This document shows, one piece after another, positions 1-5,484 of a stretch of 5,484 nucleotides of DNA. Each line of letters opens with the position of its first letter. Positions within the stretch are counted from its first letter, which is position 1. Location: positions 1 to 5,484 of the forward strand of contig JAGYIH010000049.1 of assembly GCA_018402615.1 (NCBI GenBank), written 5' to 3'. The DNA comes from Aquiluna sp. (lineage in GTDB: Bacteria; Actinomycetota; Actinomycetes; Actinomycetales; Microbacteriaceae). A program made the position numbers and the translations under genes. Under the pieces are notes generated by a model that ran no database searches, had not been told where the DNA came from, and saw only the letters and a program-made list of their open reading frames with translations.

Positions 1-2
1 CC

Positions 3-167
3 CTCCGCAGCCTGCCTGGCGAATTTACCGGCCTCCACCTAGCCTCGCTCCTGTATACAGGAATGCAAAAGATCGCCCCAAACACAGACGCCGGAATCGA
101 TCTGTCCCGCGAACTCGCCGAGGCGAAAGCTCTGCTCTCCGATCAAACCAACCCGCCGAAAAACTGA
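3..167 (+). CDS. C-terminal fragment of an unrecognised protein
   Basis: An open frame enters from the left edge and runs for 54 codons to a TGA at 165-167. Third codon positions are mostly G or C, as expected for real coding sequence, and there is no in-frame stop before the TGA. The visible peptide begins LRSLPGEFTGLHLASLLYTG. A helical charged stretch (SRELAEAKALL) follows, and it ends in a polar tail (NPPKN). I do not recognise the family. An in-frame ATG at 63 would give only 34 residues, so this is more likely the tail of a longer gene than a complete small one. It is separated from the helicase operon by about 320 bases of structured non-coding DNA, so it is probably not part of that operon. 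Confidence 0.5.
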   Translation, partial: LRSLPGEFTGLHLASLLYTGMQKIAPNTDAGIDLSRELAEAKALLSDQTNPPKN

Positions 168-259
168 ATGAATCCAAATCCACCATCTTCAAAAAAACTG
201 GAGGGCGATGCTCTGTCAGCGCCGTGGTATCCGCGCCGAGCGCCCTTTCAGCTACCTCG

Positions 260-292
260 CCCCGTGGAATGCGAAGCCCTATTCCACCGGGG
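260..292. repeat. Bulged inverted repeat (11-bp stem, 10-nt loop)
   Basis: The left arm CCCCGTGGAAT (260-270) pairs with ATTCCACCGGGG (281-292) across a 10-base loop. This gives seven pairs next to the loop, one unpaired C at 288, then four G:C pairs, with a possible G:T pair outside at 259/293. The stem is too long and GC-rich to be casual. There is no T-run directly after it, so it is not a typical intrinsic terminator, but it could end transcription of the upstream gene or be a REP-like dispersed repeat. Confidence 0.7.
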
Positions 293-350
293 TCAGCTTC
301 TGCCTGCCTCCCTTTTCTTCACCCGCCACTCGTTACAAGCCACGCGCCAC

Positions 351-365
351 GGCGGCGAAGCCGCC
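351..365. repeat. Short GC hairpin (6-bp stem, GAA loop)
   Basis: GGCGGC (351-356) and GCCGCC (360-365) form a perfect six-pair stem around a GAA loop. A second small palindrome, GGCC-AAA-GGCC, follows at 375-385. Together with the larger hairpin at 260-292 they suggest a repeat-type intergenic element. No T-tract follows, so an intrinsic terminator is not supported. Confidence 0.5.
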
Positions 366-490
366 TCAGTCCTCGGCCAAAGGCCTGTGGCAGCTTTTGC
401 GACACCCCCCAACCGAGGCTGCATGGAAATGACCACAGACTAAAGGAAGCCTGCCGAAACCAACCGCCGACGAATTAAAACCCATTGCAA

Positions 491-3334
491 ATGTATACCG
501 ATTACCATTCGAAATATTTTGCCTATGAACTAACCAGACGCAGCGCTTCTGATAGCGTGGAGAAGCTGGCAGCGGCTGTCGCGGGTGCTCAAGTGGACCT
601 CAATCCCCATCAGGTGGACGCGGCTTTGTTTGCATTCTCTTCTCCATTGTCAAAAGGCGCGATTCTGGCTGACGAGGTTGGCTTGGGAAAAACAATCGAG
701 GCCGGCTTGGTGCTCTCCCAGAAGTGGGCGGAAAGAAAGCGCCGCATTTTGATCATCGTTCCGTCAAATCTTCGCAAACAGTGGCACCAGGAGATGAAGG
801 AAAAATTCTTTCTCCCCTCAATTATTCTGGAGACGAAATCTTATAATGCGGCGATTCGCCAAGGTCGTTTCCGGCCCCTTGAAGTGGATGAAATTGTGAT
901 TTGTTCCTACCAGTTTGCCCGGAACAAGGCTGCTGATGTCGCTAACACTGCTTGGGACCTTGTGGTGATCGATGAGGCACACAGGCTGCGCAATGTTTAC
1001 AAGACTTCAAACATCGTCGCAAATACCCTCAAACTTGCCTTAGCGGGAAAGCATAAGCTTTTGCTCACCGCAACACCGCTTCAGAATTCCCTGCTCGAAC
1101 TTTTTGGCCTCGTCAGCTTCATCGATGACCACACTTTCGGTGACTTGAAAAGTTTCCGGGACCAGTTTGCGAACCTCACCCAAGAGCAGGTTTTCGAGAC
1201 TCTTCGAACAAGGCTGAGACCGGTTTGCCACCGCACGCTCAGGCGCCAGGTTACCGCCTACATTCCATTTACAAAAAGAAGTGCCATCCTTGAGGAGTTC
1301 ACCCCCGAGGAGAGCGAAGATCGCCTATACAATCTCGTTTCCGAATACCTTCAGCGTCCCAACCTTCAAGCCCTGCCACCCGGTCAGCGCTCCCTCATGA
1401 CGCTTGTGCTGCGGAAGCTTCTGGCATCGTCCACATTTGCCATTGCCGGGGCCCTCGGCACCATCGCCGATAGGCTCAAGGCGAGGCTGAAGAAACAAGA
1501 GCCCAAGACCCCTCTCGATGAGGAACTCAACGAAGATTACGAGGCGATGGACGAAACCGCCGAGGAATGGAGTGACGACGAGGCTGAGGATCCTCTTTCG
1601 GATGCGGATCGCACGGCTATCGAAGAGGAGATCGCCGACTTGGAAAAATTTGCTACTCTCGCCGTCTCCATTAAGCACAATGCAAAAGGAACTGCTCTGC
1701 TTCAGGCCCTGCGGATTGCATTTGCCAAAGCCCGCGAAACCGGTGCAGCGGAAAAAGCAATCATTTTTACAGAGTCACGCAAAACGCAGGACTACATCTT
1801 GAGGGTTCTTTCCGACAGTGAGTTCGGCGAAGGAGTCCTTCTCTTTAACGGCTCAAATACCGACGAGCATTCTAAAGCAATCTATGCGGCTTGGGTGGAA
1901 AAGCACGCTGGCAGTGACTGCATCTCTGGTTCGAAGTCGGCCGACATGCGTTCCGCCTTAGTTGAATATTTTCGTAACGAAGGCCGCATTATGATTGCCA
2001 CGGAAGCCGGGGCCGAAGGCATCAACTTGCAATTTTGCTCCCTCGTCGTGAACTACGACCTCCCTTGGAATCCCCAGCGCATTGAGCAGCGAATTGGGCG
2101 CTGCCACAGGTATGGCCAGAAACACGATGTGGTTGTCGTAAATTTCCTCAACCGCAAAAATGCCGCAGACCAGCGCGTCTATCAGCTTTTGTCCGAAAAA
2201 TTCCATCTTTTCGAAGGAGTTTTTGGAGCGAGTGATGAAGTTCTCGGGGCTATCGAGAGCGGCGTGGATTTCGAAAAACGCATTGCCGGCATCTACCAGC
2301 GTTGCCGTAAACCCGAGGACATCGAGTCCGCTTTCAAAGTGTTGCAACTTGAACTGGACTTGGAAATCAACGAGGCGATGAAGCAGACTCGCCGCAAGCT
2401 TCTGGAGAATTTTGATGATGAAGTCCGGGAGAAGCTCCGGGTTCGCGCGGATGCTTCAGCCCAGTCTCTCGACCGCATCGAGCAAAATCTCATGCGATTG
2501 ACCTCGCATGAGTTGCGAGACCATGCCGATTTTATTGGTGACGACTCGTTTCGACTAAAGAGCTGCCCTTATCGAGGGGATATCCCTCTCGGGCTTTACG
2601 AACTTCCTCGGCGCACGGGCGAGGCTCATGTCTACCGACTCTCCCACCCACTCGCAGAGGCCATCACACAGGCATCGATTTCAAGGGATTTGAAATCAGC
2701 CGAAATCCACTTTGATTACAGCAGCTATGTTGGAAAGCTTTTTGCTCTGGAGCAGTATCGAGGCGCCTCTGGCTGGCTGGCTCTTAAGCGATTCACCGTG
2801 GATGCCTTTGATCAAGTCGAAGACCATCTTTTGTTTTCAGCCTCGACAGATCAAGGCCATGCCATCGAGTCCAGCGTAGCAGCTCTTTTGTTCAAGCTAC
2901 CCGGCCATGTTGCCTGTGATTGCCATGACCAACCTCCAGAGAACCTTGCGAAGTCCGCCGGCCAAAAAGAAGAGGAGATTCTGCAAAGAATCTCCGAGCG
3001 CAATAACAAATTTTTCGATGATGAAGTCACCAAACTGGACGCTTGGGCCGACGACTTGAAGCTCAGCCTTGAGCAGGAAATCAAGGAGATGGATCGCAAA
3101 ATCAAGGAAGCTCGGACACTCGCAAAAAAAATGGTCACCCTTCAAGAGAAGCTCGAGGCCCAGAGAAAAATCAGTTCCTTGCAAAAACAACGAATTGAAA
3201 AACGCCGGGCGCTGTTCACAGCTCAAGATGAAATTGACGAGAAGCGGGATGAACTCATCTCGAATGTGGAAAAGAAGCTAAGACAAAAAACTACTGAAAA
3301 CTATATTTTTACAATCAGATGGAGGTTGAATTGA
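491..3334 (+). CDS. SNF2/RapA-like superfamily 2 helicase (defence-type)
   Basis: This is a 947-residue DNA-dependent ATPase of the SNF2/HepA-RapA group, cytoplasmic and probably a double-stranded DNA translocase. Visible motifs: Walker A DEVGLGKT (61-68), motif Ia around IIVPSNLRKQW (88-98), DEAH box (161-164), motif III TATP (193-196), IIFT (424-427), motif V ATEAGAEGINLQ (503-514) and motif VI QRIGRCHRYGQ (533-543) with both expected arginines. An acidic insert (about 343-381) separates the RecA lobes. The tail is a highly charged coiled coil (about 827-932). No nuclease motif is evident. TAA at 476-478 closes the frame, leaving only TTG at 485 or ATG at 491 as starts. I prefer ATG because MYTDYHSKY resembles the start I remember for relatives; neither has a good ribosome binding site. 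It leads a coupled operon with a DNA methyltransferase, implying restriction-modification or anti-phage work. Confidence 0.93.
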   Translation: MYTDYHSKYFAYELTRRSASDSVEKLAAAVAGAQVDLNPHQVDAALFAFSSPLSKGAILADEVGLGKTIEAGLVLSQKWAERKRRILIIVPSNLRKQWHQEMKEKFFLPSIILETKSYNAAIRQGRFRPLEVDEIVICSYQFARNKAADVANTAWDLVVIDEAHRLRNVYKTSNIVANTLKLALAGKHKLLLTATPLQNSLLELFGLVSFIDDHTFGDLKSFRDQFANLTQEQVFETLRTRLRPVCHRTLRRQVTAYIPFTKRSAILEEFTPEESEDRLYNLVSEYLQRPNLQALPPGQRSLMTLVLRKLLASSTFAIAGALGTIADRLKARLKKQEPKTPLDEELNEDYEAMDETAEEWSDDEAEDPLSDADRTAIEEEIADLEKFATLAVSIKHNAKGTALLQALRIAFAKARETGAAEKAIIFTESRKTQDYILRVLSDSEFGEGVLLFNGSNTDEHSKAIYAAWVEKHAGSDCISGSKSADMRSALVEYFRNEGRIMIATEAGAEGINLQFCSLVVNYDLPWNPQRIEQRIGRCHRYGQKHDVVVVNFLNRKNAADQRVYQLLSEKFHLFEGVFGASDEVLGAIESGVDFEKRIAGIYQRCRKPEDIESAFKVLQLELDLEINEAMKQTRRKLLENFDDEVREKLRVRADASAQSLDRIEQNLMRLTSHELRDHADFIGDDSFRLKSCPYRGDIPLGLYELPRRTGEAHVYRLSHPLAEAITQASISRDLKSAEIHFDYSSYVGKLFALEQYRGASGWLALKRFTVDAFDQVEDHLLFSASTDQGHAIESSVAALLFKLPGHVACDCHDQPPENLAKSAGQKEEEILQRISERNNKFFDDEVTKLDAWADDLKLSLEQEIKEMDRKIKEARTLAKKMVTLQEKLEAQRKISSLQKQRIEKRRALFTAQDEIDEKRDELISNVEKKLRQKTTENYIFTIRWRLN
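3321..3325 (+). promoter_or_regulatory. Ribosome binding site deciding the start at 3334
   Basis: A perfect GGAGG lies inside the last codons of the helicase gene, eight bases before ATG 3334. It favours that start over the in-frame ATG at 3319, which would have this site inside its own coding sequence. Confidence 0.8.
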
Positions 3335-3810
3335 TGAACGCCAATTTTGATCTTGATAACGACCAGGATGACCCAATGGCCCCAGTGGTTTTTAAACTCC
3401 TTAACGGAAATCTTGTTAAGGTTGTCGCACAGGAAATAAGAAGTCCTTTCACTCCTCGAAATTCCTTCGAGGATGAATTGCCCGAAAAAACCTACCGACT
3501 CATCGTATTTTCAAATGACTATACCTTTGAAAATGCGCCGATTAATCAATTTCAGGTGGAGCCCGGTATAGATTTTACTGAAGAAACGATCGTAGAAATG
3601 TTGGCGACCATCCGAGAGCACATTGGATCGGACTCCCGCCATGATTACGAGGAACTGGATGAATTCAACGAGTGGCTTGTCGAGGCCTCGCTTCGAATCG
3701 CGGAATGCCCCGAGGACGCTGTGCGGCACTACGAAAAATTGCCGAACTTAACCTACCCGGAAGCATTTGACCGGATAGACGATTCTTTTTTCAACGACCA
3801 AAACGACTGA
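3334..3810 (+). CDS. Small highly acidic protein of unknown function
   Basis: This gene encodes 158 residues and I do not recognise its family. The ATG shares one base with the helicase stop (TGATG) and sits eight bases after GGAGG, so translation is probably coupled; the ATG at 3319 would add five residues but lacks such a site. By hand count there are about 36 Asp/Glu against 12 Lys/Arg. The N-terminus (FDLDNDQDD) and C-terminus (IDDSFFNDQND) are especially acidic. The middle has alternating hydrophobic segments (VVFKLL, YRLIVFSN) suggesting beta strands, followed by probable helices (about 80-130). There is no signal peptide, membrane segment or cysteine cluster. Its place between helicase and methyltransferase suggests a subunit, adaptor or inhibitor of the system. 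A DNA-mimic role is possible from charge alone, but that is speculation. Confidence 0.85.
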   Translation: MNANFDLDNDQDDPMAPVVFKLLNGNLVKVVAQEIRSPFTPRNSFEDELPEKTYRLIVFSNDYTFENAPINQFQVEPGIDFTEETIVEMLATIREHIGSDSRHDYEELDEFNEWLVEASLRIAECPEDAVRHYEKLPNLTYPEAFDRIDDSFFNDQND

Positions 3811-3811
3811 C

Positions 3812-5470
3812 ATGCCAAGCAAACAAAAACTCGAACTGACATGGATTGGCAAGGAACACCGCCCGAAGCTGGAACCTCGGATTTTGATCGAAGACCCTTC
3901 GAAGTCCTATCATGCCAAACAACGGGCTAGTGAAAATGATATCTTCGAGAACCGCCTAATCTTCGGCGACAATTTACTCGCGCTTAAAGCTCTGGAACAG
4001 GAGTTTGCTGGTAAGGTTAAGTGTATTTTTATTGATCCGCCTTACAACACAGGCAGCGCGTTTACCCATTATGACGATGGCGTTGAGCATTCGATCTGGC
4101 TTTCTCTGATGCGGGATAGATTGGAGTTGCTAAAGAGACTTCTCTCAGAAGATGGCTCACTTTGGATCACAATTGATGACAATGAATCCCACTATCTTAA
4201 GGTCCTCTGTGATGAGGTGTTTGGCCGAGTGAATTTTTTGTCGAATGTTGTTTGGCAAAAGAAATTCCAAGTTCAAAGTAATTCAGAAGGCATTTCTTCA
4301 TCACATGACCATATCCTTATTTATGCAAGGGATCGGGCCAAGTTGAAATTGGCGCTGTTACCAAGAACCGATGCATCCAAAGCGAAATATACAAATGCTG
4401 ATAGCGACCCAAGAGGCGTTTGGATGTCTGATAATTTTACCGTCAGCTTGACGAGTGGACAACGGGGGGCTCAATTTGCCAAAACAGGTAAATCGTCAAA
4501 TCTTTACGAAATTACAACTCCTGCGGGCAGGAAAGTTCTCCCACCGAGCGGCACTTGCTGGAGATTTAGCCCGGAGCGATATGAAGAACTTGTGAAAGAC
4601 AATCGTGTTTGGTTTGGTGTAAGCGGCACAAGCGCCCCTAGACTCAAACGGTTTTTGCATGAGGTTCAGGATGGTGTTATTGCAGGCTCTCTTTGGTTTC
4701 GAGACGAAGTCGGTGACAACCTAGAGGCAAAGCGCGAAATTTTAGTTCTTGACCCAGTCAATGTGTTTGCGACTCCAAAACCAGAGCGATTGCTTCAACG
4801 CGTTCTGCTATTAGCCACAAAGCCCGGCGACCTCGTGCTCGACTCTTTCCTCGGCTCTGGCACCACGGCGGCTGTAGCTCACAAGATGGGCCGACGCTGG
4901 ATAGGGATTGAATTAGGTGATCACTGCCACACGCACTGCTTACCGCGTTTAAGCAAAGTTGTTGACGGAACTGACCCTGGTGGTATCACCGAGGCGGTGG
5001 AATGGAAGGGCGGCGGTGGCTTTCGGTATTACCGTCTCGCGCCGTCGCTCCTAACTCAGGACAAATGGGGCCAGTGGGTCATCAGTCAGGAATACAACGC
5101 ACCGATGCTGGCCGAAGCGGTGTGCAAGTTAGAAGGCTTTTCCTATGCCCCCAGCGACACTCTTTACTGGCAACACGGCCACAGCACCGAGCGCGATTTT
5201 CTCTACACCACGACTGCCAACCTGACGCATGATCAACTCCAGCAACTCAGTGATGAGGTCGGAGCGGATCGTAGCCTGCTTGTTGTCTGTTCCTCCTTCC
5301 GCAGCCGCAAGGAGGGCTACCCGAACCTCACAGTGAAGAAGATTCCAAAAGCCGTCCTCGGGCGCTGCGAGTGGGGCAAGGATGATTACAGCCTTAAAGT
5401 AGAGAACCTGCCCCAGGCCCCACCAAAGATTAGGCAGGGAACTCTTTTTGAAGATGGAGGTGCATTATGA
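3812..5470 (+). CDS. Beta-class DNA methyltransferase, type III Mod-like
   Basis: This 552-residue protein is an S-adenosylmethionine-dependent DNA methyltransferase, most likely N6-adenine. Catalytic motif IV is DPPY (75-78, followed by NTGS). A conserved segment LWITIDDNE lies at 117-125. A variable region at about 150-320 is the likely target recognition domain. Then come the motif X region TPKPERLLQRVL (321-332), AdoMet-binding motif I DSFLGSG (344-350) and a GIEL motif at 365-368. Catalytic before AdoMet-binding is the beta-class order of type III Mod proteins. The C-terminal 150 residues, after a glycine-rich KGGGGF, are probably a partner-binding domain. The start follows the previous stop by one base and has no clear ribosome binding site, so coupling is likely. 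G+C rises from about 46% (3841-4800) to about 58% (4801-5100), suggesting mosaic origin. It probably protects host DNA from the partner nuclease. Confidence 0.93.
   Translation: MPSKQKLELTWIGKEHRPKLEPRILIEDPSKSYHAKQRASENDIFENRLIFGDNLLALKALEQEFAGKVKCIFIDPPYNTGSAFTHYDDGVEHSIWLSLMRDRLELLKRLLSEDGSLWITIDDNESHYLKVLCDEVFGRVNFLSNVVWQKKFQVQSNSEGISSSHDHILIYARDRAKLKLALLPRTDASKAKYTNADSDPRGVWMSDNFTVSLTSGQRGAQFAKTGKSSNLYEITTPAGRKVLPPSGTCWRFSPERYEELVKDNRVWFGVSGTSAPRLKRFLHEVQDGVIAGSLWFRDEVGDNLEAKREILVLDPVNVFATPKPERLLQRVLLLATKPGDLVLDSFLGSGTTAAVAHKMGRRWIGIELGDHCHTHCLPRLSKVVDGTDPGGITEAVEWKGGGGFRYYRLAPSLLTQDKWGQWVISQEYNAPMLAEAVCKLEGFSYAPSDTLYWQHGHSTERDFLYTTTANLTHDQLQQLSDEVGADRSLLVVCSSFRSRKEGYPNLTVKKIPKAVLGRCEWGKDDYSLKVENLPQAPPKIRQGTLFEDGGAL
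5456..5460 (+). promoter_or_regulatory. Ribosome binding site for the fourth operon gene
   Basis: GGAGG within the last codons of the methyltransferase lies six bases before ATG 5467. It is a good match at good spacing and supports a real start in the ATGA overlap. Confidence 0.75.
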
Positions 5471-5484
5471 ATCGGAATGTCAAC
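5467..5484 (+). CDS. Start of fourth operon gene (possible Res-like helicase-nuclease), cut by window
   Basis: Only six codons are visible (MNRNVN). The ATG overlaps the methyltransferase stop by four bases (ATGA) and follows a GGAGG. The tight coupling and strong ribosome binding site make a genuine gene likely. Its identity cannot be read from six residues. By context, a type III Mod-like methyltransferase is normally followed by a Res protein (DEAD/DEAH helicase plus PD-(D/E)XK nuclease), and the visible genes lack a nuclease. I also recall Res-like proteins in comparable clusters that begin with a similar peptide, but I have not checked this. Treat the function as an inference. Confidence 0.6.

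Follow-up and report, generated by a model that had tools for sequence, protein, structure and literature searches.

We analysed a 5,484-nucleotide stretch of DNA from Aquiluna sp. (GenBank assembly GCA_018402615.1, contig JAGYIH010000049.1, positions 1 to 5,484 of the forward strand; hereafter the window), which probably represents the front of a type III-like restriction-modification operon with an SNF2 motor gene, in the order SNF2, cargo, mod and (res). Direct reading of the open reading frames (ORFs) gave an SNF2 gene at 491–3334, a small acidic gene at 3334–3810, a mod methyltransferase gene at 3812–5470 and a fourth start at 5467, all on the forward strand. The SNF2 and acidic genes overlap by 1 base (acidic-gene ATG at 3334), the acidic gene and mod are separated by 1 base (mod ATG at 3812), and mod and the fourth gene share a 4-base ATGA overlap (fourth ATG at 5467). 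This four-gene layout with its three junctions had been described in a first-pass annotation made from the letters of the sequence, and the ORFs bore it out.

The first gene (ATG 491, TGA 3332–3334) encodes an SNF2/RapA-type ATPase of 947 amino acids (aa), matching the Pfam families SNF2-rel_dom (2.4e-38) and Helicase_C (8e-21). Its Walker A motif DEVGLGKT (residues 61–68; 671–694) and DEAH box (residues 161–164; 971–982) fall in invariant alignment columns, and each motif is kept in 164 of 165 SNF2 sequences. Similarity to BrxH was seen in the PADLOC scan. The third gene (ATG 3812, TGA 5468–5470) encodes Mod, a 552-aa beta-class N6/N4 DNA methyltransferase of the type III kind. It matches Pfam N6_N4_Mtase (9e-49) and PADLOC PDLC03636 MTase_III (732.8 bits), which places it in the type III Mod family, and its predicted fold matches EcoP15I and other type III Mods. 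Translation and alignment located motif IV, DPPY (residues 75–78; 4034–4045), and motif I, FLGSGTT (residues 346–352; 4847–4867); DPPY ahead of FxGxGTT is the beta order. The target-recognition region lies at approximately 4259–4741, with bounds estimated from the alignment, and is variable among relatives. Read from the sequence, the gene order, intact SNF2 ATPase and methylase motifs and a predicted type III Mod fold are thus all present.

The cut fourth gene, which the first-pass annotation had called unknown, is almost certainly res. Its first six codons (5467–5484) read MNRNVN and resemble MNRHVN, the start of Res in near relatives; MNRHVNAI(A/S)GRLSLR stands at or near the called Res start in loci L007, L008, L011, L054 and L268, and the corresponding region of L103 reads MNRHVNSIAGRLSLR. 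The 4-base overlap between the mod and res ORFs is likewise found in L007, L008, L268 and L103. All four Res proteins of relatives that were scanned gave a REase_III match, and the Walker and PD-(D/E)xK residues of relatives' Res are intact.

We then compared the window with related loci. These came from plasmid searches with Mod and with SNF2 (six plus ten loci opened, in most of which SNF2, Mod and a DEAD/DEAH (Res) gene stood together), from a genome scan with an SNF2 alignment (best 80 loci kept), from a viral-contig scan (77 loci, of which 44, L102–L145, were analysed and the 33 weakest matches left out) and from NCBI model NF038318 run over 398, 398 and 387 genomes of three phyla (53 stretches taken). 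SNF2, Mod and Res profiles built for this analysis were run over 194 sequences (193 loci and the window). Twenty sequences with an SNF2 shorter than 830 aa were left out, which left 174. A 95% identity limit removed nine near-duplicates (L070, L037, L056, L063, L123, L122, L096, L286 and L140) and brought the set to 165, of which 94 had at least 8.5 kilobases (kb) after SNF2.

Mod followed by Res lay 3' of SNF2 on the same strand in 81 of these 94 non-redundant loci, and both lay 5' of SNF2 on the same strand in three (L055, L061 and L095), so that the pair adjoined SNF2 in 84. By source, the downstream pair was present in 35/43 loci of the genome scan, 35/37 of the NCBI model set (at least four of them also in the genome scan), 6/8 plasmid loci chosen by SNF2 and 0/1 viral loci; the 5/5 plasmid loci chosen by Mod are not independent of Mod. 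No opposite-strand Mod or Res was seen in the first 96 loci, and in the viral locus L136 both are on the minus strand. A Mantel test between SNF2 and Res gave modest positive values (0.37, n = 108; 0.27, n = 70), with 0/200 shuffles reaching either value. Order, strand and counts in relatives rule out chance adjacency of the operon genes. The dedicated SNF2 ATPase proposed in the first-pass annotation is accordingly supported as a conserved addition to a type III-like system, the fourth gene being read as Res. The reversed arrangement, with Mod and Res 5' of SNF2 on the same strand, was also observed in L128, and core genes are broken or split in L094, L126, L244 and L130.

Several observations weigh against this reading, and some of them favour a rival in which a plain type III mod-res pair merely shares an operon with an independent SNF2 antiphage gene or a RapA-like transcription-recycling gene. 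RapA is the best solved-structure match of the window SNF2 by sequence. SNF2 pairs with two Mod size classes, with 9 changes on the tree, and may therefore be a loose helper, not a fixed subunit. The complete Mod-Res pair is missing in 10 of the 94 loci (L034, L071, L072, L074, L079, L084, L091, L142, L281 and L284), of which L071, L079 and L091 have Mod. The Thioclava locus L096, outside the 94-locus count as a near-duplicate of L002, carries SNF2 with neither Mod nor Res in its stretch. For the window itself, Res is visible as six codons only, and the predicted structure of the acidic protein was unusable (predicted local distance difference test, pLDDT, 47.5). Against an independent SNF2 stand the same order and strand in 81/94 loci across many phyla, the joining of cargo-free loci by overlaps or few-base gaps, the retention of the ATPase motifs in 164/165 sequences, and the occurrence in plasmids of one version of the Mod C-terminal domain only together with SNF2. 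We consider this rival unlikely. The L096 SNF2 ORF (8974–12690) is 1238 aa long with a long C-terminal extension, and is near-identical to the SNF2 of the cargo-free Ketogulonicigenium locus L002, which has both Mod and Res.

The C-terminal version in question spans Mod residues 405–530 (5024–5401). Five plasmid mod-res pairs whose Mod matched less well (L097–L101) were picked by hand as controls; none has an annotated SNF2 gene alongside. Over residues 45–130, identity to the window was 54–72% in the controls versus 48–91% in 35 SNF2-linked Mods (that of L093 a fragment); over residues 405–530 it was 11–24% versus 32–86% in 33 of the 35. A plasmid search with the C-terminal part alone returned 23 of 72,556 records, and 23/23 were also in the SNF2 match list. 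EcoP15I contains two Mod C-terminal domains, one of which touches Res in the solved structure and the other of which is exposed. A wholly new domain at the Mod C-terminus was unsupported: the model aligns with type III Mods to about residue 511, so the C-terminus is read from the predicted structure as a divergent version of the type III Mod domain. The C-terminal sequence alone had no match in the PDB. On the adverse side of the same comparison, the SNF2-linked Mod of L087 is an exception, with residues 405–530 just 22% identical to the window, and 15 of the 23 plasmid records belong to one Salmonella lineage. Moreover, the link to SNF2 is confounded with the Res lineage, which also differs in the ordinary mod-res controls (27% versus 68% identity around Walker A). 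Because the control Res proteins are more distant too, divergence at the C-terminus may track Res in addition to SNF2; excerpts of PMC4490356 describe Res as the established partner of this Mod domain.

Among 116 loci with Mod and Res downstream of SNF2, 44 had no gap above 150 bases at either junction, 65 carried at least one non-core-like ORF of at least 150 aa, and seven were undecided (L048, L050, L053, L094, L126, L244 and L256). An ORF lay between SNF2 and mod in 54 of the cargo-bearing loci and between mod and res in 28; in the 8.5-kb subset, 54 of 81 loci carried cargo. The 155 slot ORFs of at least 100 aa, the window gene included, fell into 89 clusters, 68 of them singletons, and 69 distinct clusters of at least 150 aa were counted with the window gene and one transposase. 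Seven core-like ORFs (six and that of L126) were left out of the cargo counts, some of them still standing within the tree, Mod-size-class and ten-pair analyses. With names taken from one representative per cluster, the slots of the 116 loci held AIPR (12 loci), AAA_21 (PADLOC HEC-01A; 7), Schlafen AlbA_2 (6), RhuM (6), Abi_2 (5), AAA_23 (5), DUF2130 (4), DUF4276 (HEC-01B; 4), YhcG (3) and Fic (2). Single cases included matches to the Septu PtuA and PtuB models in L011, SIR2 with a HerA-like ATPase in L089, GmrSD-type proteins in L088 and L280 and a PLD-type nuclease in L001; L054, outside the 116-locus set, carries a protein kinase. The Methylobacterium locus L007 bears AIPR. A Pfam scan of 39 slot proteins left six without a match (those of L003, L011 at 14189, L027, L107, L239 and L263), and that of L011 fits the PtuB model.

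Cargo followed the SNF2 tree only slightly, since its state required 58 changes versus 64.5 ± 0.6 (lowest 62) after shuffling, on a quick tree of the 116 loci and the window that carries a long-branch warning (52 cargo states, 109 decided loci). Of 31 SNF2 pairs at least 75% identical, 15 shared the cargo state, nine of these being both empty. In ten hand-picked pairs with differing slot content, DNA homology ended at most 193 bases from the SNF2 stop codon and resumed at most 93 bases from the mod ORF start, in three at the start codon itself; for L011, whose called mod ORF is too long, the aligned start codon was used. L011 and L275, whose SNF2 proteins are 87% identical, have an Abi_2 cluster in common in the mod-res slot, and their SNF2-mod slots hold Septu genes in L011 versus a HEC-01A-like ATPase with a 210-aa partner in L275. 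Unrelated genes, many of them resembling defence genes, evidently replace one another between SNF2 and mod. DNA homology to close relatives also breaks within the Mod recognition region (L011/L275, at L011 15242–15889; L005/L248, at L005 9426–10056), so specificity and cargo both vary among near relatives. In the Salmonella plasmid locus L005, an IS256 family transposase (6551–7807) was observed in the cargo slot beside an Abi_2 gene.

In the window, the slot is occupied by the acidic gene (3334–3810; TGA 3808–3810), which encodes an orphan protein of 158 aa with 36 D+E versus 12 K+R and an isoelectric point of 4.14. It had no Pfam family and no meaningful match in the PDB. The first-pass annotation had suggested that it is an extra component of an expanded restriction or anti-phage system. 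It would then be a dedicated regulatory subunit of a four-gene system, a DNA mimic or an inhibitor of Mod, Res or SNF2, as its acidic composition and its tight coupling to the neighbouring genes would suggest. Identity of at least 67% is likewise kept in its five database homologues (67–85%). These homologues lie on short contigs; the protein clusters with none of the other slot proteins in the 155-ORF set; pattern scans of genome and viral contigs, which reach close relatives only, returned no relative; and 44/116 loci have no gap above 150 bases at either junction. A regulatory-subunit role is improbable, and we read the acidic gene as slot cargo, not a core component. The shared order of all four genes was not found elsewhere in the loci compared, to which the contigs of the five homologues do not belong, because the acidic family as found consists of those homologues and slot content varies. 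The expanded restriction system proposed at first pass is therefore supported as regards a conserved SNF2 on a type III-like core, and unsupported as regards the small acidic protein as a conserved component.

Next, the operon was set against known systems. In type III systems, cutting depends on ATP and on a pair of unmethylated sites. The window and its relatives resemble type III systems (EcoP15I; Mod2Res1) in the beta-class Mod with a type III fold, in mod ahead of res and, in relatives, in a downstream Res helicase with a PD-(D/E)xK nuclease. They differ in the added SNF2 gene, in their own Mod C-terminal version, and in variable cargo on either side of mod, towards SNF2 and towards res. 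Since the window has SNF2 plus one more gene ahead of mod, and SNF2 precedes mod-res in 81/94 loci, we class the core, on sequence grounds, as an SNF2-extended type III-like restriction-modification system, not classical type III, its SNF2 being sister to DISARM DrmD_b.

The comparisons with Hma and DISARM recommended at first pass were run, and neither system fits what is visible of the window and its relatives. DrmD_b is the best match of the window SNF2, and three DISARM-type loci (L075, 8661–21798; L143, 6623–17802; L141, 5267–16537) carry a C5 methylase, DrmD_b, Mod, Res and DrmA consecutively, followed in L075 by DrmB; L078 and L139 carry a C5 methylase, DrmD_b, DrmA and DrmB. A misnamed NCBI DrmD_b model was ruled out for L075 and L143: DrmA, and in L075 also DrmB, is found in these loci, so the model is correctly named and both are hybrid loci. 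The window SNF2 scores 703.9 bits against NCBIfam DISARM_DrmD_b, below the cut-off of 950, as do its near relatives L268 (693) and L103 (695), and the cut-off is passed by L075 (1331.6), L143 (1528.0), L078 (1414.6), L139 (1378.8) and L141 (1396.0). By phmmer, DrmA was found in 5/194 and DrmB in 3/194 sequences, all five with an above-cut-off DrmD_b. Among the 116 Mod-Res loci, DrmA was found in three and DrmB in one, again all with an above-cut-off DrmD_b; neither was found in the other 113, within the reach of the stretches, or in the 5.5-kb window. L075, L141 and L143 also sit on a separate long branch (length 0.96) of the quick SNF2 tree. That the window is a DISARM variant with drmA and drmB beyond its end is therefore very improbable.

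Hma and BREX-related systems likewise pair a helicase with a methylase and have other defence systems lodged among their core genes, and HEC-01 and Septu models match cargo here too. Hma identity of the core was rejected on the PADLOC scores of the window SNF2 (HmaA 191.7 versus DrmD 694.6 bits) and on the differing methylase and third core gene, here a type III beta-class Mod and Res. In excerpts of the sources, Hma has a DUF499 ATPase (PMC12839542) and a methylase reported as 5-methylcytosine (m5C) type (PMC8565338). The incomplete gene tables of the 16 annotated plasmid loci, on which no profile was run, name no DUF499 ATPase (HmaC). Toxin or guard genes also occur within type I restriction operons, such as PrrC and DarTG2 in an RptR-controlled island (excerpts of PMC12707154 and PMC12255303); the restriction core differs, and the slot here separates the methylase from an added motor gene. 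ARMADA, as described in excerpts of PMC12458937, is likewise a RapA-like SNF2 helicase and methylase operon, with a PglX-like methylase and YprA helicase in place of the type III Mod and Res seen here. Excerpts of PMC2292703 describe MORC operons in which the helicase is SNF2 or type III-like, and note that AIPR is frequent in restriction operons. Searches of an open-access library, which lacks most subscription papers, turned up no account of SNF2-Mod-Res as a system. A preprint by Payne (2024) on embedded defences may cover part of the picture.

SNF2 of this kind was present in 7/398 sampled genomes of Bacillota (phylum of L075), 19/398 of Pseudomonadota (phylum of L007) and 27/387 of the phylum of a Verrucomicrobiaceae genome (L011), counted with the NCBI model as SNF2 only, not whole operons, and with known positives included. 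Close SNF2 relatives (69–79% in the best segment) were also observed on L102, L103, L135 and other IMG/VR contigs classed as viral, which may be prophage or plasmid-like. In 7/16 plasmid loci (L093, 8084–8995; L005, L087, L088, L089, L090 and L094), a WYL protein or small helix-turn-helix gene lies immediately 5' of SNF2, which suggests a dedicated regulator. In window positions 1–490 no convincing gene was seen; the 5'-open frame at 3–167 may be the tail of a gene that lies further upstream. Promoter, Rfam and tandem-repeat scans of the window, including 1–490, gave no usable match.

In the SNF2-extended type III-like operon that we favour, the target-recognition region of Mod would determine the site at which Mod marks host DNA, and Mod-Res would cut unmarked phage DNA. 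SNF2 would act as a double-stranded-DNA motor in the same complex, perhaps docking on the Mod C-terminal domain, where it could clear or remodel DNA-bound proteins, or drive or gate Mod-Res. Remodelling of protein-DNA complexes and nuclease control had both been raised as candidate mechanisms at first pass. The occupant of the slot, in the window the acidic 158-aa protein, would be a co-expressed second-line defence or guard cassette and not a subunit. A wider proposal, which we put forward tentatively and regard as doubtful, is that SNF2-Mod-Res forms an uncatalogued, phylum-crossing defence chassis. Cassettes would swap as units between the SNF2 stop and the mod start and between mod and res; the core would express and restrain the cassette and free it when restriction is blocked, and the acidic gene would be the first observed member of a new defence or guard family.

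The link of this SNF2 to DrmD_b suggests an exchange of parts between DISARM and type III-like modules. Two genes are taken to make up a type III restriction system; a conserved motor gene on type III-like operons would change their annotation and engineering, and the slot would provide a guilt-by-embedding list for defence-gene discovery.

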